Positions 6,371 through 63,995 of a DNA stretch of 64,000 nucleotides are shown one piece after another; position 1 is the first letter of the stretch; each line of letters starts with the position of its first letter. The notes under the pieces were generated by a model. That model was not told the DNA's origin and searched no databases. It saw nothing but the letters and a program-made list of their open reading frames with translations. The stretch is from NCBI GenBank assembly GCA_037447655.1, contig JBBHKE010000159.1, positions 588,041-652,040 on the forward strand. The letters are read 5' to 3'. Source of the stretch: Zygnema cylindricum. Taxonomy: Eukaryota > Streptophyta > Zygnematophyceae > Zygnematales > Zygnemataceae. The translations under genes and the position numbers were made by a program.

Positions 6371-6631
6371 TCCAACTTCGTGGACTAAACTTGCCGGTTC
6401 GTTTGTTTAAGTCAATATATACGATCGCCCGGCAACCCCAAATTCTTAAATGTCGTACGGACGAAACCCGTCCAATCCAAAGTTCTTAAGGCATCTTTTC
6501 GCCCGAAATTGAAGTCAATCTTCGATTACAACCGTAGTTTGCTGTTACAATGGCTTCTCCCCAAAGCGAAGCATTGTGCTTCGTGCTATGAAGCATCGCA
6601 CGCACCATTTCCTGCAACGTCATGTTTTTTT

Positions 6632-6860
6632 TGTTGGATTGGCACGTGAAGCTGGTCCAATACGGGGTAGAATATGGAAATATCCATACTCGAGCCGCCT
6701 GTAATAAATGGGTACGGACCCGCCAGTCTCAACATCGAGCTGGTGGCACAGTGGTAGTGCGTTCGCAGCTGAAGTGAAAGTTCCCAGGTTCGAACCCTGG
6801 CCGGCTCAATTTTCCCAAGTGTGGGACATGCCGAATCCCGGATTTCTAGGAAATCTAACA
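6632..6860 (+). repeat. 5' LTR of the miniature element
   Basis: A 229-bp repeat with TG...CA ends. It contains an A-box/B-box pair inside the tRNA-like region and a perfect inverted motif tatggaaatatccata near 6674-6689. Its copy at 6918-7146 has the same length. Confidence 0.88.
6737..6807 (+). tRNA. tRNA-like cloverleaf inside the 5' LTR
   Basis: These 71 nt fold by inspection into a complete cloverleaf. The acceptor stem has 7 pairs (GAGCTGG with CCGGCTC, one G-T). The D stem GCAC/GTGC has the loop AGTGGTA. The anticodon stem TTCGC/GTGAA has a 7-nt loop, the variable loop is AGTTC, and the T stem CCAGG/CCTGG has the loop TTCGAAC. A box: 6744-6754 (TGGCACAGTGG). B box: 6787-6797 (GGTTCGAACCC). 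The nominal anticodon would be CTG, but position 33 is G here and A in the other copy instead of T. A working decoding tRNA is therefore unlikely. A Pol III promoter role is more plausible. Confidence 0.75.
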
Positions 6861-6873
6861 TGGTATCGAAGCC
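6861..6873 (+). other. Primer binding site of the miniature element
   Basis: TGGTATCGAAGCC lies directly after the 5' LTR. It matches the initiator methionine tRNA 3' end except for an AG/GA swap. Confidence 0.7.
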
Positions 6874-6917
6874 AGCGGGATTGCGGATGGTTTGACCGGC
6901 TTTCCCGTGAGGGGGGG

Positions 6918-7146
6918 TGTTGGATTGGCACGTGAAGCCGGTCCAATACGGGGTAGAATATGGAAATATCCATACTCGAGCAGCCCGTAATAAATGGGTA
7001 CGGACCCGCCTGTCTCAACATCGAGCTGGTGGCACAGTGGTAGTGCGTTCGCAACTGAAGTGAAAGGTCCCAGGTTCGAACCCTGGCCGGCTCAATTTTC
7101 CCAAGTGTGGGACATGCCGAATCCCGGATTTCTAGGAAATCTAACA
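6918..7146 (+). repeat. 3' LTR of the miniature element
   Basis: A 229-bp copy of 6632-6860 with six substitutions. It is followed by RNase H sequence of copia element 2, not by the sequence that precedes the 5' LTR. Confidence 0.88.
7023..7093 (+). tRNA. tRNA-like cloverleaf inside the 3' LTR
   Basis: Same fold as at 6737-6807, with all four stems kept. A box is at 7030-7040 and B box at 7073-7083. Two of the six LTR differences lie here, one in the anticodon loop and one in the variable loop. Neither breaks a pair. Confidence 0.75.
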
Positions 7147-7314
7147 GCAAGCACCTTCCCCCACATACAAAGCATATCCAGATGTGCATCTTCTCATACG
7201 TGCATCCCCATAACTAGCATCACTCCAAGTGGTGATATCAGTGTGCTCCCTTCCCAAATGTAACCATAATTCTTTGGTTCCAACCAGATATCTCATGACT
7301 CTTTTGGCTGCCTT

Positions 7315-7560
7315 TCAATCTCTCTTCCTAGGATCATTAAGACTCCTACTGAGTACTCCAACTGCTGTCGCTATGTCTGGCCTGGTAGAGTTCATAAAAT
7401 AGATTAAACTTCCTACGACCTGTCTATAAGGGATAGACTTCATGAACTCTCTCTCCTCTGGACTCATCTGATCGTCTAAGATCATCGGTCCTCCTTCTCC
7501 ACTCCCATCACTTACTTTTTTCAAGTCCATGGGAGTGGTACAACTGTTAGCATTTTCCAT
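7315..7560 (-). pseudogene. Copia 2, segment between reverse transcriptase and RNase H
   Basis: An 81-residue stretch with the copia connection motif: CTTPMDL, then YRQVVGSLIYF and TRPDIATAVGVLSR. RNase H-like sequence continues to 7147 in broken frame and is then cut off. Confidence 0.8.
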
Positions 7561-7596
7561 TTGGAATTTCTCAAGTATATTACCTATTGCTTCTCT

Positions 7597-8838
7597 CTAA
7601 TTAAGTCTAATAATCTTCTTTCCCCTATCTCTCTCCATTTGGATCCCCAAAATATATTTTGCCTCCCCTAAATCCTTCATGTCAAATCTGCCCCTAAGAT
7701 CTTTCTTTAGCTTATTGATCTTCTCCAAAGACTTAGTTAACACAAGCAGATCATCCACATAAATTGCAATAAAAATGACACCATTCTCATCTTCAAACAT
7801 ATTGATAGAATGGTCAGAGCTGATACGGATATATCCCAGATCGGTGAGAAACTCATCTAGTTTCTTCTTCCACTGTCGGGGAGCCTGCTTCAGTCTATAT
7901 AAAGACTTTATGAGCCTGCAGACTTTGCTCTCTTCTCCTTCTTCCACAAACCCCTCGGGTTGCCTTATGAAAATTTCTTCCTCTAACTCACCATTTAGAA
8001 AAGCAATTTTAAACTGATCTAGTTTCTTATTCCACTGTCGGGGAGCCTGCTTCAATCTATATAAGGACTTTATGAGCCTGCAAACTTTGCTCTCTTCTCC
8101 TTCTTCCACGAACCCCTCGGGTTGCCTAATGAAAATTTCATCCTCTAACTCACCGTTAAGAAAAGCAGTTTTAATGTCCATCAGGTGTATTTCTATGTCT
8201 TTCGCTGCTGCCAGACTGATGAGAATCCTTACTGATGGGAACCGAACAACTGGAGCAAAGGTCTCCTCATAGTCAATCCCCTCCTTTTGGGTGAACCCTT
8301 TCGCTACCAATCGAGCCTTATATCTCTCAATGGTATAATCTGGGTTCAGTTTTAGTTTAAATACCAATTTACACCTTATAGGTTTTATGTCTGGAGGACA
8401 ATCCGCTAGTTCCCAAGTATTTGCTTCCATGATAGAAGTCATCTCATCATTTATGGCTCTAATCCATCTTTCTTTCTCTGGACTATTCACTGCCTCCAAG
8501 TAAGACTGAGGCTCATCTAGGTGAGATAGCTTAGTTACCTTATGAGCGACCTGTTTTTCTTGTATCCTTTTGGTGCTCCTCCTTCCTCCCTCAAACTCCG
8601 AAGCTGGAATGGATGGAAGTCTTGGGTTTCTTCTCACTGTCTCATCGGCTCCCCTGTTCATGGAAGTCGGTTCTGGTCCCGCTTCTTCTATGTCCTCGAA
8701 ATCCATAGGAGTATGTGAGGTTTCCGGTGAGTCTCCTGTATCTCGGATCTCCCCTAAATCTGCAATCACGGTTTCACTTATGTCCCTTTCGGGAACGACC
8801 GAGTTCTCTTCACTGTCGGACTCAAATCTGATTCTCAT
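7597..8838 (-). pseudogene. Copia 2 reverse transcriptase with an in-frame 54-residue duplication
   Basis: 413 open codons. An acidic linker of about 100 residues is followed by the reverse transcriptase domain: YEETFAPVVRF, FLNGELEDEIF, SLYRLKQAPRQW and YVDDLLVL. The segment from FLNGELE to RQW-KKLD occurs twice in a row, with a 162-bp period (about 7843-8004 and 8005-8166) and a few differences. The second copy joins the rest of the domain normally. The extra copy keeps the frame but would disrupt the palm fold, so I infer an inactive enzyme. No start codon choice is meaningful here. Confidence 0.85.
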
Positions 8839-8920
8839 CTTCTTTGTATATTTGAAGGGGTAAATGACTTCCTTTCATCCATGACAACTAAGTGTTTGAC
8901 CAGAATTATATCTTTCTTTG

Positions 8921-21763: not shown

Positions 21764-29198
<7,435 letters not shown>

Positions 29199-40028: not shown

Positions 40029-40985
40029 TGTAACAGTAATAGCGGATCGAACTTGGTTATAAAAGGGTATTTAGGTGTTATGATTATAGAGTACTAAATT
40101 TGGTAGACGTCCGCGAAAGAATCACGCTATTTGGAGTTATATTTTAAAAGTTACAGGGATGGGTGTATTTAGGTGACAGCGTGGGGTCTAAATAACAAGT
40201 GGGTATCATTGAAACGGGTTGAGGGTCAAATCAGTACCGAAATAACGCGTGTACGTTTCATAAAGTTATAATGAAACGTTTAGTATGCACGGTGGTTCGT
40301 TTCTTACAAATTTTAGTACGAACATCACTTTCACTTAAGGGAATTTCGTAGGAAGTTTCGCGTGCAAAATTTGTTACGCACGATCGTGCGAAGTCGCGTT
40401 TTGTTTGGCGCGCACTTTTGCACGTAAAAGTTACGTAGTGAAACGTAACGTTTGATTGGTTAGTAAAGTGCTAATTAGTTAGTAAGAGATTTCACACGTT
40501 TTTGCATTGGTAAGTCTGAGTCCTTGCTGATCAATGATTAGCCCACGTAAAAGCTTGTTAAAACGGCCTGGCGAGTCCAGGGTGATGATGGATAAATAGT
40601 GAAATGTAAGAGGAGAGTAGACATCTTTTTCTTTGGAAAAGTTTGTGGAAATTCCGGTTGATCTTGGTGCTGAGCGATTAATACCAAATTGGAGAAAAGG
40701 CATTTTTGAATTGAAATCTCTTCCTAACTAATTAGTGTTTTAGTAGTTAGGAGATAGAATTATTAAGAGTGGAGAGTAGTGGAAAACACTTTAATAAGAA
40801 GGGTGAAGCCATGAGGGCAAGAGACCAAGCTAATGTTATGTGGACAGAAGCTTCTTCTAATTTAAAGTTTATCCTTATGTGAGTGTGGTCCAATGCGGAT
40901 GTGTATTTTCCAATGTGTGGAATGTGTGGTTGGGATTGTTTGTAGTAATGGGAGTTTTTTCTGAGAAAAAGGAGATCCTGTTAGA
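40029..40985 (+). repeat. 5' LTR of the nested gypsy element
   Basis: 957 bp, homologous to 46807-47773. It is followed two bases later by a primer binding site similar to that for initiator methionine tRNA. Confidence 0.9.
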
Positions 40986-42029
40986 TATGGTATCGGAGCT
41001 TTGGTTAGAAACCAGGGAGAAGTTTGCTCACTCGAATATCGACTGCCGCGACCGGTGAGGGTGCTCTAATATGTGTTAGTAGAACCACAATGTGAAGTGG
41101 TAGGGGATTGGAGGGAAACCGAGTGATCACACTGCCAACGGGCGCTGGTTAGATGTGGGGCGTGCTCAGATCTTAAAGACTATGGCGGGGTGGGCAGTGT
41201 AGCCACCGCTGAAACTCACTCTAACTACCTAGAGGCCAAACAAACTTGCCTTCTCCTAGCAATGATTCATGTGTAGAGGGAGGGCTTGAAGTCATGAAAG
41301 GTGAGGATGTGAGAATTAAAGAGTAAAAGATCTTGATGTAGTGGGAAGTGGGAAGTGGGAAATTTGCTAATGGAGGAGAAAGAAAGTGGAGTACTTCACT
41401 TTTTCAAGAGCAAAGGAGTCCAGGAATGTCTCAAAACATTTCAAACCCTATATTGTTACCTTTGATTGCTTTCAATCTTGCTGTTGCAATATTTGTGGTT
41501 AAATATTACCTTTGAGAGCTTTCAATTTTGCTGTTTCAAAATTTGTGGGGAAATTCTTACCTTTTGTTTCAATGTTGGGAAATTGAAGTTTGAATTTGCA
41601 CTAAATTACTGTCAATGTTTTTTTTATTTCTCAAATTTTGACATTTTCAAAGGATTCGTTAAGGAGAATAAGTCTTAGATTGGAACAATCTTAGGACTTC
41701 AAATCTGCAGCAAATTTTTTTGGGAAATTATATTTTTTCTTTTCTTTTGCTTGATTTCATTGTGTGTTAATGACAAATTTTGCATGGAAACGTGAAATGG
41801 AGAATGCTTAGAATGTGTTGAAGAAGTTTACTATGAAATTGGTCAAATGATTTAATAATCATGCTGCCGCTGAAGATGAAACCATTTCCGAATTGAAAAG
41901 TGAATTGAAAGTTGTTAAAGAAAATGGAAATGTTTCAAATGAGAAATTAGATGTACTTATTAACTTATTTCAGACCAAAATGATATTAATGACCAAAAGG
42001 GTGAAAGTAGTAAAAGGAATGTCAGTTTT

Positions 42030-43007
42030 ACGGAGGATGATCATGATAGACCTAAGAAGATAAGAGATCTGAAATTGTCTATTAGTGAGGCACCATCGTT
42101 TTATGGTAAGAAGATTGATCAGTTGGATGCTTGGATTTTTCATATGGAGTATTAGTTGGAATATAGAAATTGTGATCGTGATGATTACACTTCTTTTGCT
42201 GTTAGCTGTTTGAAAGGCGATGCTCAGATTTGGTATTACACTCAAAGAATGTCTAAATTGATTCCTGATTATGCTAATTGGGAAAATTTTAAAACCGCGA
42301 TCAAATCGCGATTCTTGTCTATCACTTTTAAATCCAGAATGGAAGAAAAGTGGTTGAACTGTATGCAGACTTGATCTGTGAAGGATTACATTGTGGAATT
42401 TGACTCATCTAGCATTCACGTCATAGATTTGACTGATGAAATGGCTAAGTTGCATTTCTTAAATTATCTAAACCCTATACTCAAATCAGAATTGAAACAT
42501 CAAAAATTTAATAATTTGAAAGAATTACAAGATAAAGCATTGGAATTAGAGGATCATTTGGGGTGTAATCGGAAAACTAGATGACTTATGAGTAATTTGA
42601 ATGAAGTATCAGAGTGGGATGAGGGGGAATTTGTGGCTGAGGGTCTGAATGCTAGTTTGGTCAGTAGGCAAAATATTTTCAGGGGAAATCAGAAGGGTGG
42701 ACAGAGTGTTAATGCAGGAAACAAATTTAACAATAGAGGGGGATACATTAAAATTCATAAACCAAGCATTAATGCTCAGAAGCCTAACCTTATCATCCCC
42801 ACATGCACTATTTGTCAGAAAAAGGGTCATAGAGCATTTGAGTGTGCACAACTGAAAAAGATTAACTGTTATAACTGTGGAGAGGAGGGACATTTTAGTA
42901 GAGAGTGCACAAAACCCAAAAAGAAAGTCACTTGTTTCAAATGCGGAGGTCCAGATCATTACACTAAAAACTGTACAGATAAAGGTTCTCTTAAACAATC
43001 GATGTAA
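42030..43007 (+). pseudogene. Nested gypsy gag with three CCHC zinc knuckles
   Basis: Capsid-like sequence (SCLKGDAQIWYY, then WENFKTAIKSRF) is followed by three knuckles: CTICQKKGHRAFEC, CYNCGEEGHFSREC and CFKCGGPDHYTKNC. All three fit C-x2-C-x4-H-x4-C. The knuckles would bind element RNA. One knuckle is the common number in plant gypsy gag, so three is unusual. In-frame stops lie at about 42153, 42373 and 42582. Confidence 0.85.
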
Positions 43008-43097
43008 ATGAAGGTCTCCAAGAGGATATTGCATATACCTAGTTGAGCAAGAAGCCCAAGAGGTGGGAAACGGAAAGGACTAACTGAAAGTCCTCAG

Positions 43098-43600
43098 TTG
43101 AGTCAACCGGATCCAGAAGTTAAAGAGTTAACTCAGGAGGGCAAATTAATGAATGGAAAAGTTAAGATAACTGAATTTATTATGATTCTCGATACACTGC
43201 ATAGTTTAAAGAATCCTTCTGATAAAATTCTCAACAACAAACCTATGTTAGGACAGTTAAGTAATGATGACACCAGACACAATTTGATTAGATTCGAGTC
43301 ATTAGTGGAAAGAAAACCGTTGAGAGTAATGGTATATTCAGGTGCCACACATAGTTTTATTTCACATAGTTTGTAGAGGAAAATAAAATTCCTACTATCA
43401 TAATGGGAAAGCCTTAACATGTTCAAGTGGTAAATGGTAATAAGTCCACATTAGACTTACAAACTGACACGATAGAAGTTGATATCCAGGGTCATAAAAT
43501 GAAAGTTGTGTGTGGAATAATGAATTTAGGAAGTGAAGAACTAATTTTGGGAAAGCATTGGTTAATTGAACACAATCCTTAAATTAATTAGGAAATTAAC
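43098..43600 (+). pseudogene. Nested gypsy aspartic protease region
   Basis: The active-site stretch reads VMVYSGATHSFI. The family has D-S-G-A here, so the catalytic aspartate is replaced by tyrosine (GAT to TAT). Downstream, a stretch resembling EELILGKHWL is the usual second protease motif. Frame breaks lie between the parts. Confidence 0.7.
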
Positions 43601-43938
43601 ACCTTGAAAGTGAAGTCTGATAACGGTTGGAAGGTTTTGCAAGCATTATCTCCTAACAAATTGCATAGGAATCATATAAATAACATAACCGGATTGGGAG
43701 TGGGAGGTATGATATGTGCTAAACAATTTAAAAAGCACCTAAATGATAAAACAAATCATGCTTTCTTGTTATTAGTAACTGAGGCAGTTACTAATGAAAA
43801 GGGGGGAGAAAACATTAACATTGATGTCATCCCTAAATCAGACACCACTAAAACTCTCGAAGAACTAAAATCTGATTTTGAAACTGACATTAAAACATCT
43901 GATGTTGCTGTTAAAGATTTGATTTTTGAAATTTCAAG

Positions 43939-45081
43939 ATGTTTTTCCAAGTAATTTACCCTCAGAAAAGGCCACCTTCCCGAGATGTGGAACATATTAT
44001 TAACCTTGAACCAGGATGCAACCCTTCCGTCACAAGAATTTATAAGCACAGTTTATTTGAGCAAGAGAAATTAAAGAAACACATCAAAGAACTCCTACAG
44101 AAAAGACATATTAAGTCCAGCAAATCACCGTACAGAGCACCAGTTCTCTTCGTCAAAAAGAAGGACGGAACGTTGAGAATGTGTGTCGATTATCGTAGTC
44201 TGAAAAATATTACAGTGAAGGATAAGTATCCGTTACTTTTAATTTCTGATATGATAGATCATTTAAAAGGTGCTAAAGTATTTTTGTTGATTGACCTGCG
44301 TAGTGGCTTTAATCAGGTGCCAATTAGAATTGAAGATGTTGATAAAACTGCTTTCAAGACTAGGGTGGGTCATTTCGAATAGATAGTGATGCCATTCGGC
44401 TTAACGAATGCACCGCCTACTTACCAAAGATTAATGAACCAAACCTTTTCAGATTACATAGATGAGTTTGTCCAAGTGTTTATAGATGATATTTTAGTTT
44501 TCAGTGAATCTAAAGAACAACATGTAATTCATTTAAGAAGAGTGTTAGAAAGGTTAAGAGAAAGAAAATTACATGGAAAATTGTCAAAATCCACCTTTCT
44601 TAAAAGTGAACAATTATTTTTGGGACATATAGTTAGTGGGGAAGGTGTTAAAACAGATCCATCCAAAATTTTAGCAATCCAAAATTGGAAACAACCTACT
44701 AATGTCACAGAAGTTAGATCGTTTTTGGGATTGGCCATTTATTACACGAAATTTATCAAGAACCTCCGAATGATCGTTGCACCTTTGACGGATTTACTTC
44801 GGGAGAGGGAGACGTTTGTGTGGGGAGCTGATCATGAGAGAGCATTCGAGGAACTAAAAGGGAAGTTGACCTCTGCCCCTACACCGGTGTATCCTGACCT
44901 TGCTGGGGAATTTGAAGTTTTGATCACTACAGATGCATCTGATAAAGGTCTAGGTGCAGTTATAAGTCAAAAAGTCGGCAAACACGCTCATCCTATGCTT
45001 TTGAGTCCAAAAAATTCAATGATGGTGAAAACAACTATACAGCACAGGTGCATTGGTGAAATGGCGTTGTTATATGCATAA
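43939..45081 (+). pseudogene. Nested gypsy reverse transcriptase and start of RNase H
   Basis: Motifs in order: [65 protein letters not shown] and the catalytic FIDDILVFS. After these come FLGLAIYYTKFIKN and the RNase H start TDASDKGLGAVIS. A TAG codon at about 44380 interrupts the domain where the family has tryptophan (before VMPFG). A frameshift follows near 45060. Confidence 0.9.
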
Positions 45082-45514
45082 TAAAGAATTTACAGTTCAC
45101 TGTGATAATAAAACACTCTTTTATTTACAAAGATTAAGTGATGCACAGATTATGACTGGCAGACAGGTTAGGTGGATGCAAAAATTAGCATATTTCAAAT
45201 TTAATGTCAAACATATTCCTGGGAAGACAAATGTAGTCGCAGATCGTATAAGTAGATATTTTGAAATAAGTGTTATGGTTCAGGATGAATTGTTTTTAGA
45301 TACTGTTAGAAATGGTTATGATAAAGATCATTATTTTGCTGTGATTTGCATGAATATTTCGAGAGGGAATTCTGAACCATTGAATGAGAGGCATGTCAAA
45401 AACTTTAGACTAAAGGATGGTTTACTGTATTTGCAGATTGGGGATAGATTATGCATTCCTGAAATGGGAGACTTAAGAAAACAAATTTTATGGGAAGCTC
45501 ATGAGCATTTATGA
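45053..45514 (+). pseudogene. Nested gypsy RNase H C-terminal part and integrase zinc region
   Basis: It contains FTVHCDNKTLFYLQ, RWMQKLAYFKFNVKHIPGK and VVADRISR, the usual end of gypsy RNase H. Next comes the integrase zinc region start LRKQILWEAHEHL, which is cut by a TGA. It is in a different frame from the preceding segment. Confidence 0.85.
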
Positions 45515-45571
45515 CATCTAGGTCGAGGTAAAACTCTTAGTCGATTGCAAAGTAGATAATTTTAGCCTGGG

Positions 45572-46519
45572 ATGGCAAACGAGGTGTCAAAACATGTGGA
45601 AAGTTGTGTCTTTTGCCAACAAAGTAAACCTAGTACCCAAAAACCTAAAGGTCTCTTAAAACCTTTGGATATCTCTGAAAGACCGTGGGAATCTATCAAT
45701 ATGGATTTTATTGTCAAGTTGCTTGCTACATCTAAAAGGAATGACAATATCATGGTCGTAGTCGATAGGTTCACTAAAATGGCAATCTTTATCCCTTACA
45801 AAACCACTCATTCAGTTATAGATATTGCAAAGTTATATTTTGACAACGTGGTCAGACATCAGGAAGTCCCTCTATCTATAGTCAGTGATAGAGATTCTAA
45901 ATTTACGTATACTTTTTGGAAAGAATTACAACAAAATTTAGGCTTTGAATTGAAAATGAGTACCGCTTATCATCATCTGACAGATGGACAGACAGAAAGG
46001 ATGAACCGTACACTAGAGGAAATGCTTAGGACTGTTTGTAGTGGAATTCAGAACACATGGGAATCTAAACTGCCATTAATGGAATTTGCATACAATTCAT
46101 GTAAACACGCTAGTACAGGATTCTCACCATTTAAAGTTGCATACAGATACCAACCTAGAGAATCATTAGACTTAATAACAGGGGTCACTCAAGAGAATAT
46201 AGGTTATGGAATAGAGTTTTGGGAATATGTTCAAACAATTTGGAAAACTGTCCGAGATGCATTAGTGGAGGCACAAAGGAGGCAAGAATTAAATGCTAAC
46301 CGCAAACGAGGTGATTGGGTGTTACGCACAGGTGACAAGGTTTGGCTTTCTAAAACTCATTACAGGTGCAAGATTGAGGGACAATTGGATCCTACGGGGA
46401 AATTTGCTCCTAAGTACATTGGACCATTTACTGTAATCGAGATGATATTGTTAGTTGTTGCAAATTGGACTTTCCGCCTTCAACAAAAATTAATCCAGGG
46501 ATACACATCAGCCAATTGA
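45572..46519 (+). pseudogene. Nested gypsy integrase core
   Basis: 315 open codons. The zinc cysteines CVFCQQSK come first. The core has D in NMDFIV, D in SDRDSKF and E in DGQTERMNRTLEE, so the catalytic triad is intact. The C-terminal GPF-like motif appears as KYIGPFTVIE. A stop (TAG) lies just upstream at about 45559, where the family has W in the WPGM motif. Confidence 0.9.
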
Positions 46520-46579
46520 AACCAACGAAGCTTCGACCAACTGAAGGAGAATTGGAATTGGATCCCTCAATAAATATAG

Positions 46580-46740
46580 GACCTGAAGTCCACAAATGGG
46601 TAATAGATTAGGTTGGTCAACGATTCAAAGTCGGCGATACTATATTCTGGCAAATGCATTATCTAGGAAGGCCTGAGGATGAGTTGACTTTAGAGGATAA
46701 AAATTTTGAGTTTTTACAAGGTATTGGAGGGATAATAATA
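46580..46740 (+). pseudogene. Chromodomain-like tail of the nested gypsy element
   Basis: In another frame than the integrase, the sequence reads VGQRFKVGDTIFWQ, then HYLGRPEDELTLED. This resembles the strand-strand-acidic end of a chromodomain. Such a domain marks chromoviruses and binds modified histones. The frame has a stop near its start. Confidence 0.5.
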
Positions 46741-46806
46741 TAGAAGTCTCGTCTTGAGAATTAAAGGTGTTTTAACTGAGGTCAATTAAAAATAAGGAGG
46801 GGATGA

Positions 46807-47773
46807 TGTAACATTAATAGCGGATCGAACTTGTTTATTAAAGGGTATTTAGGTGTTAAGATTATAGAGTACTAAAATTGGTAGACGTCCGCGAAAGAAT
46901 CACGCTATTTGGAGTTATATTTTAAAAGTTATAGCGATGGGTGTATTTAGGTGACAGCGTGGAGTCTAAATAACAAGTGGGTATCATTGAAACGGGTTAA
47001 GGGTCAAATCAGTACCGAAATTACGCGTGTACGTTTCATAAAGTTCTAACGAAACGTTTAGTATGCACGGTGGTTCGTTTCGTACAAATTTTAGAATGAA
47101 ACGTCACTTTTACTTGAGTGAATTTCGTGGGAAGTTTCGCGTGCGAAATTTGTTACGCACGATCGTGCGAAGTCGCGTTTTTTTTGGCGAGCACTTTTGC
47201 ACGTAAATATTACGTAGTGAAACGTAATGTTTGATTGGTTAGTAAAATGCTAAGTAGTTAGTAAGAGATTTCGCACGTTTTTGCATTGGACATTGTGAGT
47301 CCTTGCTGATCAATGACTGGCCTAGGTAAAAGCCTGTTGAAGCGGATCGTTGAATCAGGTCTGGCGAGTCAGGGCGATGATGGATAAATAGTTAAGTGTA
47401 ACAAGAGAGTAGACATCTTTTCATTTGGAAAAGTTTGTGGAAATTTCGTCTGATCTTGGTCCTAAGCGATTAATACCAAATTGGAGAAAAGGCATTTTTG
47501 CATTGAAATCTCTTATTAACTAAATATTGTTTTGGTAGTAAGGAGATAGAATTATTAAGAGTGGAGAGTAGTGTAAAACACTTTAATAAAAGGGTTGAGC
47601 CACGAGGGCAAGAGACCAAGCTAATGTTACGTGGACAGAAGCTTCTTCTAATTTAAAGTTTATCCTTATATGAGTGTGGTCCAATGTGGATGTGTATTTT
47701 CCAATGCATGGAGTGTGTGGTTGGGATTTTTTGTAGTAATGAGATTTTCTGAGAAGAAGGAGATCCTGTTACA
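46807..47773 (+). repeat. 3' LTR of the nested gypsy element
   Basis: 967 bp, TGTAAC...GTTACA. Homologous to 40029-40985 and directly preceded by the polypurine tract. Confidence 0.9.
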
Positions 47774-59359: not shown

Positions 59360-62300
59360 ATGGCAGAAAAGATGTTTGAAGATTCGGAAGGAGAAGTGGA
59401 GGTCCGTTTGTCGCTTCCGGAAAATATTTTAGTTTCAGAGGCAATTCAAAACCTGATTGTGGAGTGTCATCCGACTTCTTTGAAGGTGAGAGGGAGGGGA
59501 GGGAGAGGAAGGGGAGGGAGAGGAAGGGGAGGGAGAGGAAGGGGAGGGAGAGGAAGGGGAGGGAGAGGGAGGGGAGGGAGAGGAAGGGGAGGGAGAGGGA
59601 GAGGGAGAGGGAGGGAGAGGGAGAGGGAGGGGAGGGAGAGGGAGAGGGAGGGGAGGGAGAGGGAGAGGGAGGGGAGGGAGAGGGAGAGGGGGAGGGGGGG
59701 GGAGGGGAGGGAGAGGGAGGGAAGGGGGAGGGAGAGGGAGGGGAGGGAGAGGGAGGGAGAGGGAGGGAGAGGGAGGGAGAGGGAGGGAGAGGGAGGGAGA
59801 GGGAGGGGAGGGAGAGGGAGGGGAGGGAGAGGGAAGGGAGGGAGAGGGAGGGGAGGGAGAGGGAGGGGAGGGAGAGGGAGGGGAGGGAGAGGGAGGGGAG
59901 GGAGAGGGAGGGGATGGAGAGGGAGGGGATGGAGAGGGAGGGGATGGAGGGGGAGGGGGAGGGGGAGGGGGAGGGGGAGGGGGAGGGGGAGGGGGAGGGG
60001 GAGGGGGAGGGGGAGGGGGAGGGGGAGGGGGAGGGGGAGGGGGAGGGGGAGGGGGAGGGGGAGGGGGAGGGGGAGGGGGAGGGGGAGGGGGAGGGGGAGG
60101 GGGAGGGGGGGGAGGGGGAGGGGGAGGGGGAGGGGGGGGGGGGGAGGGGGAGGGGGAGGGGGAGGGGGAGGGGGAGGGGGAGGGGGAGGGGGAGGGGGAG
60201 GGGGAGGGGGAGGGGGAGGGGGAGGGGGAGGGGGAGGGGGAGGGGGAGGGGGAGGGGGAGGGGGAGGGGGAGGGGGAGGGGGAGGGGGAGGGGGAGGGGG
60301 AGGGGGAGGGGGAGGGGGAGGGGGAGGGGGAAGGGGAGGGAGAGAAAGGGAAGTGGGGGGTGGAGAGGAGGAGAGTGAGCGGAAGGGGAAAGAGGTTTCC
60401 AGAAAATGTTTCCGTTTCAGTTTCCATTCAAATTTTGATTGTAGAATGTCCTCCTACTTCGTTAAAGTAGAGGGAGGGGAGGAGAAGCGGAGGTGGAGGG
60501 GGGAAGAGGGGACAGGAGCGAGGGAAAGAGTGAGAGAGGGATAGAGTGAGAGAGGGATAGAGGCAAGAAGTTTTGGGGTTTACCTGTTTTATTAAATTGA
60601 CATGTCTCTTTATTTACACCAAAATGACGTTTGTTTCTGCTCAAAAATTACAATTTTTATTTCAAATTTTCTGTTTTATGTGGATGTTCACATTTTGTTT
60701 TGTCCTACATGTTCCATGTGTCTTATTTTTATTTCTGTTTGCTGATCACTGTTTCATAAAGTAACTGAAAATATTAACTGGTATTGGAGTTGATAGAACC
60801 AGTACGGAGGATATAGAGGATATTTATTTATTTTTAGTATCGTTTTATCTGCAAGACTCTGACGAATTATTCTATGAGGTGAAAAAAATGGACTGAAATA
60901 GTGTTTTTTAAAAAATAATTGCAATCAACGGTGTATTTTTTGTTTTGAATGTTATCCCATTTTACTTTCTTTGTATTGCAGCCAATAGTTTTTTTTTTTG
61001 GAGAAATGCCAAATTCTGCTTCTTTACAAGTCTTAACTTTTTTATTTTATTTTCTTTTGATTGGTTGAAAGCAGAATACGCCTATATTTTGAATCTGTTT
61101 CTTAATCTATTTTTGTTAACTTAATTGGTTCGCACAAATGATGTTATTCGGGTGCCAGGAATGGAAGTCATTCAAAGTCCTTTAGTATGTTTTATTTTTT
61201 TTCACGGATGTTAATGTCGATCATTTTAGCGGCAATCTCTTTTTTTTGTGTTTGGATAAGACTCGTCTGATTGGTCCATGAAAGCCTGATTGGATTAATG
61301 TTATGTGACTCTGTAAATTTTTTATAAAACTTGTAAAATTTATGAAATCCTGTCAGAAAATTTTCTCACAACTCGCGCAAAACTTGTTACCCGGTTGTAT
61401 TTAGAAATTTATAAATTTCTTATCATTTCACATTTTTTTGGGTAAAATGCCCCACATTGTGTGCTGACTTATGTTTTTGCAAATTTTACATAAAAAAAGT
61501 TGTCTATATAGACTCGAGGCAACAATGTCTTGACTAATTTTTGCTGTTTAGCCTTCTAGACAAAGGTTGTATTTGGACTCGGATTGTTCGCATAATAAAT
61601 AATCTATTCCCCGATTTTATATAGATTTTGAATATGACCCCAAATATAATATAGATTTTGAATTTGACCCCGAATATAATATAGATTTGGAGAATTTGAA
61701 TGTTTTTGTTTGCAGGTGATGTGGAAAAGTGGAGGACTTCCACTTTTGGATGCGTCTCCTTTATACGAAAAAGTACGGTCAGCCGACATGGCATGGTATG
61801 TAGAGGACAGACAGGTGGTTATCACTTTGCAAAAATTAGTTAATCGGAAATGGCCTGCTTTGACTGACAAAGAAGCCCTGGAAAAGCGGTTTGGACCCTT
61901 TAATCTCCCACCGATAAAAAAGAAACCGGCCGCGAAAGATGGGGCAGGAGCCATGGAGGCGAGAAGTAAAGTTGATCGGTTTCTTAAAGCGGCTCAAAGT
62001 GGGGATTTAGAAGGTTTTAAAGAGGCAGCGAAATCGTTAAGTGAAGGAAAAACCTTAAGTGGAGGAGAAGCGGTAGAGAAAGGAAAAGCGTTTGAAGATG
62101 GAAAAGAAGAGGAGAGGGAGATAGCAGAGTGTGTGTCAGAGGTAAAGGATGGACATGGGAGAGGAGCTCTCCATTTTGCCGCTCATAAAGGACGATTAAA
62201 TATCGTCAAATATATACTTGATACGCTGAAATTGCCGGCGGACCCACGAGATGAAGAAGGAGAGACTCCGTTGATGTTAGCGGCGAGAGAAGGAAATTTA

Positions 62301-63995
62301 GAAATTTCTGAAAGTCTTTTGGAAAGTGGGGCGGATCCGAATGCTGTGGTGGAAGCAACCGGAGCCCAAGCGATTCATCACGCGGCTGGTCACGGTGAGA
62401 CTTTTTTTCGTTTTTTTTTTTTTTTATGTGTGTTGATCGAATTTTCCATTTTTCCCTCGGAAATTTGATTTTCATTTGAAACATGATTTCCATTTTCTCT
62501 CGGAATCTGATTTACCTTAGTCTCTGAAGCACAGTTCAGTGTACGTTTCGTGTGTGGTTTTTTTTCGATGGGACTATTTTGGCGAGATAAATTTGAGGGA
62601 GATAATTTTGAGGAAGATAAATTTGAGGGAGATAAATTTGAAGGAGATCAATTTGAGGGAGATAATTTTGAGGGAGAAAATTCGAGGGAGATGAATTAAA
62701 TTTGCGGGAGATAAATTTGAGGGAGATAAATTCGAGGAAGATAAATTCGAGGGAGATAAATTCGAGGGAGATAAATTTGAGGGAGATAAATTTGAGGGAG
62801 ATGAATATGAGGGAGATAAATTCAAGGGAGATAAATTTGAAGGAGATAAATTTGAGGTAGATAAATTTGAGATTAAATCGAGGGATATAAATTTGAGGGA
62901 GATAATTTCTAGGGAGATAAATTTGAAGGAGATAAATTTGCGGGAGATAAATTCGAGGGGTATGAATTTGAGGGAGATAAGTTTGAGAGAGATGAATTAA
63001 ATTTGAGGGAGATAAAATTCATGGGAGATTAATTTGAGGGAGATAAATATGGGGGAGATGAATTTGAGGGAGGTGAATTTGAGGGAGATAAATTTCAGGG
63101 TGATAAATTTGAGGGAGATAAATTCGAGGGAGATAAATTTGAGGGAGATAAATTCGAGGGAGATAAATTCGAGGGAGAAAATTCGAGGGAGATAATTTCG
63201 AGGGAGAAAAATTTGAGAGAGATAAATTGGAGAGAGATTAAATGCCCAGGAGCTGTGGAGTGGGTGAATGGTTTAACAAGAGGGAGAGGTTTTCTTATTT
63301 GCTCTGTCTTTTTTTACAAAGCTTTCACATAGCCTGGCGTCATTTTGGTGCTATGGGTATTTGAGTAGTTATTTCATCAAAACGGATAGAAACTGCTGTC
63401 GAGTATTAAGTAAAAGGCTTTGTCGGAATCAATGCTATTATAGATTTTACAATTACGGTATAAAACGACAAAGCATTTTTGGTCCAACCGGCCTTTCTTT
63501 TCCTTTTGATGGTAAAATGTTGTCCTAGTGGAATTGGAGAGAAATATACTGTCCCAGAGCTGTGGAGTTGGTGAAACCGTTGGTATAAAAACGAGCTAAT
63601 AGTGTTTTTGTTTTTTTACTTTTGTCGATGGTAAAATGTTGTTTAAGTGAAATTTGGTTGGTATGTAAACAAGCAAATAACTTTTTTTTTACACTTTTTT
63701 CGATTTTAAAATGTCGTTCAAGTAGAAGTTGGTGGATATAACTGAATTCAATGGATAAAATTGTGCAGGAGCGGTGGAGTTGGTGAAACTGTTGGTTAAA
63801 AAAGGAGCAGACGTGAACGCGCAAAGTGATGCTGGTCCTCCTCTTCTTTGGGCTTGTGGCCATGGCCGAAAAGATGTCGTTAATGCGCTTCTAACTTTTG
63901 GGGCTGATCCTAGCATGGCAAATGAAGATGGTGTGACGTCACTCCTCACAGCAGCAGCTGCGAAAGAAACGGACATCATGGAAATTCTCGTCAAG
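59360..63995 (+). CDS. CS-domain ankyrin-repeat protein, 3' end outside the window
   Basis: Three exons are visible: 59360-59485, 61716-62394 and 63769-63995, with a donor GTAAC at 63996. Frame is kept at both junctions. The CS (p23/NudC-like) domain is split by intron 1: VEVRLSLPENILVSEAIQNL in exon 1, then VMWKSGGLPLLD and DMAWYVEDRQVVITLQKL in exon 2. A basic linker and ankyrin repeats follow: GALHFAAHKGRLNIVKYIL, TPLMLAAREGNLEISESLLE, AIHHAAGHGAVELVKLLVKK and PLLWACGHGRKDVVNALL. The ankyrin part resembles plant ankyrin-TPR proteins, which would place TPRs further on. CS domains bind Hsp90 clients or partners, so a cytosolic co-chaperone-like adaptor is inferred. The ATG follows a long T-run. 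Confidence 0.88.
59486..60346. repeat. G-rich hexanucleotide array at the start of intron 1
   Basis: It begins within the 5' splice site (GTGAGAGGGAGGGG). 59486-59940 mixes gggaga and ggggag units; 59941-60340 is almost pure GGGGGA, about 65 copies with two G-run interruptions near 60106 and 60134. All G-runs lie on the transcribed gene's sense strand, so the RNA could form G-quadruplexes. All six frames stay open, which explains the long artefactual reading frames here. Confidence 0.95.
60347..61715 (+). other. Remainder of intron 1
   Basis: AT-rich sequence follows the G-rich array. A segment near 60395-60470 (gtttccagaaaatgtttccg, then aattttgattgtagaatgtc) resembles the exon 1 end (59415-59470: cttccggaaaatattttag, then cctgattgtggagtgtc). 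It looks like a decayed copy of exon 1. A 34-bp tandem repeat (ccccgaatataatatagat) lies at 61617-61690 just before the acceptor. Confidence 0.6.
62578..63235. repeat. 15-bp minisatellite in intron 2
   Basis: The unit gagggagataaattt (variants with ttc for ttt, and some shortened copies) is repeated about 40 times over roughly 650 bp. Open frames on the minus strand reading as serine-proline-asparagine-leucine repeats are artefacts. Confidence 0.9.
63240..63768 (+). repeat. Duplicated copies of the exon 3 border within intron 2
   Basis: The exon 3 start (gagcggtggagttggtgaaa at 63769) is preceded by two decayed copies: gagctgtggagtgggtgaat at about 63250 and agctgtggagttggtgaaac at about 63553. 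The intron segment with gatggtaaaatgttgt also repeats at about 63509, 63627 and 63703. So short intron-exon stretches were duplicated in tandem and only the last copy keeps a good acceptor (ttgtgcag). Confidence 0.65.

Follow-up and report, generated by a model that had tools for sequence, protein, structure and literature searches.

Structure of the Element and Its Flanks

The window, which is the whole 64-kb stretch of Zygnema cylindricum DNA that was analyzed, contained a 515-bp element without coding capacity, in which two 229-nt direct repeats with TG...CA ends and six substitutions between them enclosed a short interior. The LTR coordinates, the TG...CA ends, and the 57-bp interior given in the first-pass annotation were borne out by direct-repeat analysis. 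The features of the element and its flanks are as follows.

6489-6631, reverse strand: left flank, integrase part of Copia element A (KNMTLQEMVRAMLHS...), integrase recognized by eye
6632-6860, forward strand: 5' LTR, 229 bp, TGTTG...CTAACA
6702-6709, forward strand: TATA-like TAATAAAT, 35 nt upstream of the 5' end of the tRNA-like segment; repeated at 6988-6995
6730-6736, forward strand: CAACATC, with CAA at -7 of the tRNA-like segment; repeated at 7016-7022
6737-6808, forward strand: tRNA-like segment of the 5' LTR (LTR positions 106-177), by ARAGORN and Rfam
6744-6754, forward strand: A box TGGCACAGTGG in the 5' LTR; repeated at 7030-7040
6787-6797, forward strand: B box GGTTCGAACCC in the 5' LTR; repeated at 7073-7083
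6810-6813, forward strand: T4 run just 3' of the tRNA-like segment, the sole T4 in each LTR of the window; repeated at 7096-7099
6861-6917, forward strand: interior, 57 bp, below protein-coding size
6861-6875, forward strand: primer binding site (PBS) TGGTATCGAAGCCAG, at the start of the interior
6909-6917, forward strand: polypurine tract (PPT) GAGGGGGGG, adjoining the 3' LTR
6918-7146, forward strand: 3' LTR, 229 bp, 97.4% identical to the 5' LTR
7023-7094, forward strand: tRNA-like segment of the 3' LTR, by ARAGORN and Rfam
7147-8874, reverse strand: right flank, part of another Copia element (B), with RNase H recognized by eye and RT by Pfam

An antisense open frame across the element had no match in the protein collection. 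Because there is no room for genes, the element would have to move with the proteins of another LTR retrotransposon. The PBS and the purine tract that had been noticed in the interior were both recovered, and the interiors of the family carry both.

No target-site duplication was found at the window copy, which is preceded by TTTTT and followed by GCAAG. Further left of the integrase part, the SH3 and RT frames of Copia element A are Pfam matches, and the RTs of elements A and B share 36% identity over their aligned part. Since the flanks derive from two Copia elements, the window copy is probably a recombinant between two insertions; with both outer LTR ends complete, such recombination would be the simplest reading.

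Elsewhere in the window, two tandem repeat blocks (59482-60390 and 62576-63241) are open in several frames. An ankyrin-repeat frame at 61680-62465 had short unnamed sequences as its best relatives (up to 52% identity) and, at lower identity, oak proteins. An exon-like frame at 22690-23082 matched the autophagy protein ATG9. PDB searches with the ATG9-like frame and a Copia frame gave no match.

A tRNA-like Segment in Each LTR

The only tRNA calls made by ARAGORN in the 64-kb window were 6737-6808 and 7023-7094, both as 'Gln(CTG)'. In a 601-base Rfam search, the two segments matched RF00005 at 52.1 and 54.2 bits (E 2.5e-10 and 6.4e-11), against a gathering score of 29 bits, and the whole-window Rfam search at the gathering threshold reported only the segment of the 3' LTR (7023-7094). 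These scores uphold the tRNA-like segment that had been proposed for each LTR, with its length corrected from 71 to 72 nt. Position 33 of the anticodon loop, described earlier as not T, is occupied by G in the segment of the 5' LTR and by A in that of the 3' LTR. The folding energy of the segments was unexceptional (z -0.98 and -0.94). No 5S rRNA-derived sequence was detected in 6600-7200, where Rfam at E up to 0.1 gave only tRNA, and the exact 22-nt 3' end of the tRNA-like segment was not found in viral contigs. Comparison of the tRNA-like part with the PBS, as for self-priming, gave matches at 9 of 15 positions.

Copies in the Host Genome

The genome searched comprised 352,776,454 bases in 2,689 contigs. 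Searching it with the whole LTR gave at least 83 LTR matches, which is a lower bound because 40 of the 991 first-look candidates were scored. The set read for this family, subfamily A, consisted of 40 loci after removal of overlaps, forming 42 blocks, six of which lacked a complete outer end. Further copies with 5-bp duplications, which the first-pass annotation had proposed to seek with the LTR, were indeed present: an exact 5-bp duplication flanked 20 of the 25 single LTR-interior-LTR elements with complete outer ends. Three of the four arrays with complete ends (3, 5, and 3 LTRs) each lay within one duplication, and the outer flanks of the fourth (L036) are equal, though the script divided this array in the duplication count. 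Complete solo LTR blocks had duplications in two of seven cases, one of the seven being a piece of L036; by eye, solo LTRs with duplications numbered 4/7 in the loci of a U3-half search and 3/5 in those of a tRNA-part search. The two LTRs were identical in 9 of the 26 loci that hold exactly two full LTRs.

The U3-half-only search gave 40 matches, 25 in loci already collected and 15 in 14 new stretches. By BLAST, 17 of the 18 LTRs in the new stretches run through the tRNA-like segment, and ARAGORN called a tRNA in 15 of the 18; L065 ends at LTR position 125, and L059 carries a deletion. The reading as a TRIM with a tRNA-like part in each LTR is supported, and LTR copies generally lacking that part did not emerge among the loci examined. 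The tRNA-part-only search likewise gave 40 matches, and its 14 further stretches all belonged to the same LTR family, L072 and L076 being fragments.

The first-pass annotation had also considered a tandemly amplified SINE with no PBS or purine tract between its units. Arrays with a 286-bp period do exist, such as one at L045:1198-2569 with five LTRs, four interiors, and one 5-bp duplication, in which three units have the PBS type GG and the last unit AG (types are defined below). However, a PBS and a PPT lie between the units, the 5-bp duplications stand outside whole arrays, and solo LTRs with duplications occur. The reading of the element as an amplified tRNA-derived SINE is thus refuted by its anatomy of LTRs, PBS, and PPT, and we regard it as hardly credible.

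Two loci showed further rearrangements. At L071:1-1801, a fold-back inverted duplication of the LTR start and its flank adjoins a copy whose 5' LTR starts at the 5' end of the tRNA-like segment. L077:478-1840 is an LTR array with 17-bp spacers, one interior, and one 5'-truncated LTR, in which an inverted LTR is joined head to head.

A genome-wide pattern search gave 10 matches, namely two of the truncated copies discussed below, two apparent full LTRs with indels, and six members of a second subfamily, B, which was first met in this way. Subfamily B has another U3 and another downstream part but resembles A in its tRNA-like core, its ends, its PBS, and its PPT. The LTR measures 229 bp in subfamily A and about 223 bp in B, and the interior 57 and 66 bp, respectively. 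A whole-LTR search with one B copy gave at least 79 matches (825 candidates, 40 scored). The 23 B loci read were 20 from this search together with L082, L084, and L087; 19 had complete outer ends, and 14 of these carried an exact 5-bp duplication and four more a partial one. The B LTR of L083 shows a tandem expansion of a piece of roughly 53 bp downstream of the tRNA-like part.

When 45 B LTRs were compared with the 3' LTR of the window, the median identity was 92% (81-94) for the tRNA-like part, 56% (49-60) for LTR positions 1-82, 71% (49-79) for positions 83-105, and 61% (57-64) for positions 178-229. The tRNA-like part was the best conserved large LTR part in 45/45, and the medians were unchanged in the 41 B LTRs left without the three pattern-found loci. 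The isotype called by ARAGORN was Gln in 72/77 subfamily A LTRs, whereas the first B loci were assigned to Lys, Thr, or 'Pyl'.

Promoter Anatomy and Transcription

Signals of a Pol III gene are nearly constant in subfamily A. The A box (TRGYnnAnnnG) occurred in 77/77 LTRs, the B box GGTTCGAACCC in 74/77, the upstream TAATAAAT in 74/77, CAACATCGAG in 69/77, and a T4 right after the acceptor stem in 75/77. When the rest of the LTR was taken as the basis of a simple Markov model, a T4 had a probability of 0.009 of occurring by chance in 10 nt, an AT-box one of 0.029 within 20 nt, and CAA one of 0.16 in 10 nt. Of 45 full subfamily B LTRs, 39 contained TATATAAA and 42 the A box, only 30 retained GWTCRANNC and 34 AACATC, and only four contained any T4. 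The start signals are common to A and B and the terminator is not; with T4 in 4/45 B LTRs, the termination side of a Pol III model lacks conservation, and the idea that T4 is generally required as a terminator was rejected. In plant tRNA genes, upstream TATA and CAA and downstream poly(T) are each reported in only some genes, according to the part of the account consulted (PMC11700998).

Pol III transcription of the element appears likely from this anatomy. As an internal promoter for Pol III, the tRNA-like segment would place the RNA start in the 5' LTR, at the CAA or at its own 5' end. Transcripts would stop inside the corresponding segment of the 3' LTR or past it, and the segment could thereby provide the R repeat that strand transfer requires. 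Under this model, the T4 of the 5' LTR in subfamily A would need read-through. The earlier suggestion that genomic RNA might be made by Pol III fits the promoter anatomy, although the T4 terminator is absent from most of subfamily B.

Alternatively, the upstream TATA could be a Pol II signal, and the element could be a Pol II TRIM in which a captured tRNA or SINE head is a passenger. The retention of TATATAAA in 39/45 B LTRs with T4 in so few would suit such a passenger, as would the variability among copies, in which the tRNA-like part is no less variable than its surroundings (within A, 0.0103 per site vs. 0.0062 and 0.0052 elsewhere; within B, 0.040 vs. 0.024 in the downstream part). The latter is, however, expected if inserted copies drift, so that only the comparison between subfamilies would speak for constraint, and there no other large part of the LTR is as well conserved as the tRNA-like one. 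Upstream TATA and CAA also belong to plant tRNA genes, at least in the portion of PMC11700998 that was available.

Truncated copies bear on the same question. The 5' truncations lie at LTR position 99 in L072, 105 in L076, 106 in L071, and within 99-107 in L077, where the junction is ambiguous; they sit near the predicted RNA start, in loci found by the tRNA-only query, and other truncated copies start at LTR positions 8, 85, and 167. The truncations at 99-107 are a weak hint of an RNA start there and, to the same slight degree, speak against the tRNA head as a passenger of a Pol II element, an explanation that we consider possible but doubtful.

Primer Binding Site and Host Initiator tRNA

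The interior starts with TGGTATCnnAGCCAG. Interior positions 8 and 9 showed minor states in 11/42 and 6/42 interiors, vs. at most 2/42 at each of the other 55 positions, CpGs included; no LTR column had a minor count above 6/77. The genome was searched for initiator-tRNA genes with a 72-nt query, presumably the Arabidopsis initiator tRNA, which matched two host genes exactly. Like the plant-like hits obtained with Copia and gene frames, this exact match points to a green plant as the host. This search gave 12 matches, the best eight of which were examined. Two of these genes read ATCAGAG...CTCTGATA, one reads ATCAAAG...CTTTGATA, and two read ATCGGAG...CTCCGATA; the other three of the eight are more divergent, L093 still being called tRNA-Met by ARAGORN.

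With CCA added, the five best-matching genes have complements that agree exactly, over 15 nt, with the three PBS types that are common in the family. Named by interior positions 8 and 9, the types among 55 subfamily A interiors were GG (34), AG (10), AA (6), and five others found once each, and the types predicted from the three divergent genes occurred in 0/55. The PBS of the window copy belongs to one of the types found once (GA) and equals no host type exactly, matching the complements of initiator-tRNA-Met types GG and AA at 14/15 positions and that of AG at 13/15. In subfamily B, 13 of 26 PBSs were exact and of the same three types (AA 7, GG 4, AG 2); of the remaining 13, one is the complement of the divergent gene L094, one is a misplaced stretch, and the rest are further changed. 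At positions 8-9 alone, AA, GG, or AG was present in 23/26. Positions 16-18 are CGG in 42/42, where the tRNA would give GTT or similar; being unpaired with the initiator tRNA, they limit what can be copied to at most 15 nt.

The host initiator tRNA thus probably primes the copying of the element, judging from this complementarity. A PBS of the same kind occurs in another element of the window:

40988-40999, forward strand: Gypsy PBS TGGTATCGGAGC, equal to the majority TRIM-family PBS (GG type) over 12 nt

The Gypsy-type element concerned (40029-47771) has LTRs at 40029-40983 and 46807-47771 that are 90% identical, an integrase frame recognized by Pfam, and an RT frame recognized by eye. Mobilization by an autonomous Copia or Gypsy element belongs to the picture of Helenus, the kind of TRIM discussed below, and the 12 PBS nucleotides shared with this Gypsy element are what was observed in that regard.

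Retroviruses copy the primer tRNA, whereas Ty1 and Ty3 are described as inheriting the PBS strictly in the part consulted of an endogenous retrovirus review (PMC7472051), and a Ty3 review, likewise consulted in part, states that the Ty3 PBS is not perpetuated via tRNA copying (PMC5371799). In the present family, 33 of the 55 copies could be typed, having a 229-nt 5' LTR and an exact PBS type, and among them 54 pairs, which are not independent, combine identical 5' LTRs with different PBS types. This suggests that the PBS is rewritten from the primer tRNA. On the LTR tree, PBS type required eight changes vs. a shuffled mean of 8.7 (n = 33), indicating no linkage; the tree holds little signal, with two of six tested LTR polymorphisms clustering, and the frequency contrast and the match to host genes consequently weigh more.

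The PBS variants might instead be inherited sub-lineages or products of CpG decay, with no rewriting by primer tRNA. The LTRs, too, change most often from G to A, the lack of linkage on a tree so low in signal is weak evidence, recombination could unlink the PBS from the LTR, and reports on Ty1 and Ty3 state that the tRNA sequence is not inherited there (PMC5371799 and PMC7472051, in the parts consulted). On the other hand, decay or inheritance would have to account for the near invariance of the other 55 interior positions and of the LTR columns, for the coincidence of the three common variants with the five best-matching host genes while the fourth combination, GA, occurs in 1/55, and for the same three types in subfamily B. 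We therefore consider inherited or decayed variants rather unlikely.

As read from the genomic copies, the data favor a retroviral way of PBS renewal in this plant element, involving at most 15 nt. In its full form, the proposal is that the PBS is rewritten in each cycle from the type of initiator-tRNA-Met that primes it, so that every genomic copy would record its primer, in a retrovirus-like manner contrary to yeast Ty1 and Ty3, with the genomic RNA defined by the tRNA-like Pol III unit; this proposal may equally well hold or fail. By title and start of abstract, no plant case of a link between isodecoders and the PBS, or of tRNA inheritance, was found among the literature matches listed.

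Relation to Helenus, Cassandra, and Retroviruses

TRIMs with tRNA-like LTRs were named Helenus by Kojima (2024; PMC10886601), who proposed the class TRIMp3. In the portion of that paper available to us, the only plant host given is Selaginella moellendorffii (LTR 120 bp, interior 85 bp), isotype disagreement by tRNAscan-SE is noted in many families, and Cassandra is the only validated TRIMp3. The present element resembles Helenus, as described there, in being a TRIM with a PBS and a PPT whose LTRs each hold a tRNA-like sequence containing A and B boxes; in its 5-bp duplications, as in the plants and fungi of that account; in its length, 515 bp falling within 311-1263 bp; in its tandem arrays, noted there for LTR-11_DR; and in a tRNA-like part that is not complementary to the PBS (here 9/15 vs. 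15/15 for the initiator tRNA). It differs from the Selaginella Helenus reported there in its larger LTRs, its shorter interior, its two subfamilies, and a PBS that varies with host initiator-tRNA types.

Cassandra is likewise a plant TRIM that forms tandem arrays and whose LTRs include a sequence resembling a Pol III gene, but these LTRs are described as carrying 5S rRNA-derived sequence with promoters and terminators (PMC7215508 and PMC10853983, each consulted in part). The parallel to Cassandra on a tRNA basis that the first-pass annotation drew is right, and the arrangement, which it had not recognized, is not unknown, because it is already in print as Helenus. Among the literature matches listed, no further plant TRIMs with tRNA-like LTRs were found, and work on Helenus or TRIMp3 beyond Kojima (2024) amounted to a citing meeting report and a butterfly genome. 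The word 'tRNA' was not found in the accessible text of a plant TRIM survey (PMC4717578). In retroviruses, PBS variants likewise reflect the use of different primer tRNAs, since the tRNA itself is copied into DNA, although the examples in the part consulted of PMC7472051 are mouse endogenous retroviruses, HIV-1, and MLV.

Taken as a non-autonomous LTR retrotransposon of the Helenus (TRIMp3) kind as outlined by Kojima, with a tRNA-like Pol III promoter and initiator-tRNA PBS variants, the element is explained in a manner that we hold with good, though not full, confidence. By its sequence features, the family is a young lineage of Helenus in the sense of that account. The element is filed here as a new Helenus member, and the PBS pattern as a new observation with respect to the literature consulted.

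The family extends Helenus in green plants beyond the single species in the available part of the 2024 listing; its insertions are very young, and a single genome offers hundreds of first-look candidates (991 and 825, mostly unscored). LTRs of this kind, being called tRNA-Gln by ARAGORN in 72/77 cases, could inflate tRNA counts. The literature seen on PBS inheritance concerns yeast and retroviruses; in this plant, the naturally occurring variety of initiator-tRNA types allows both the choice of primer and the inheritance of the PBS in a retroelement to be read from its genomic copies.
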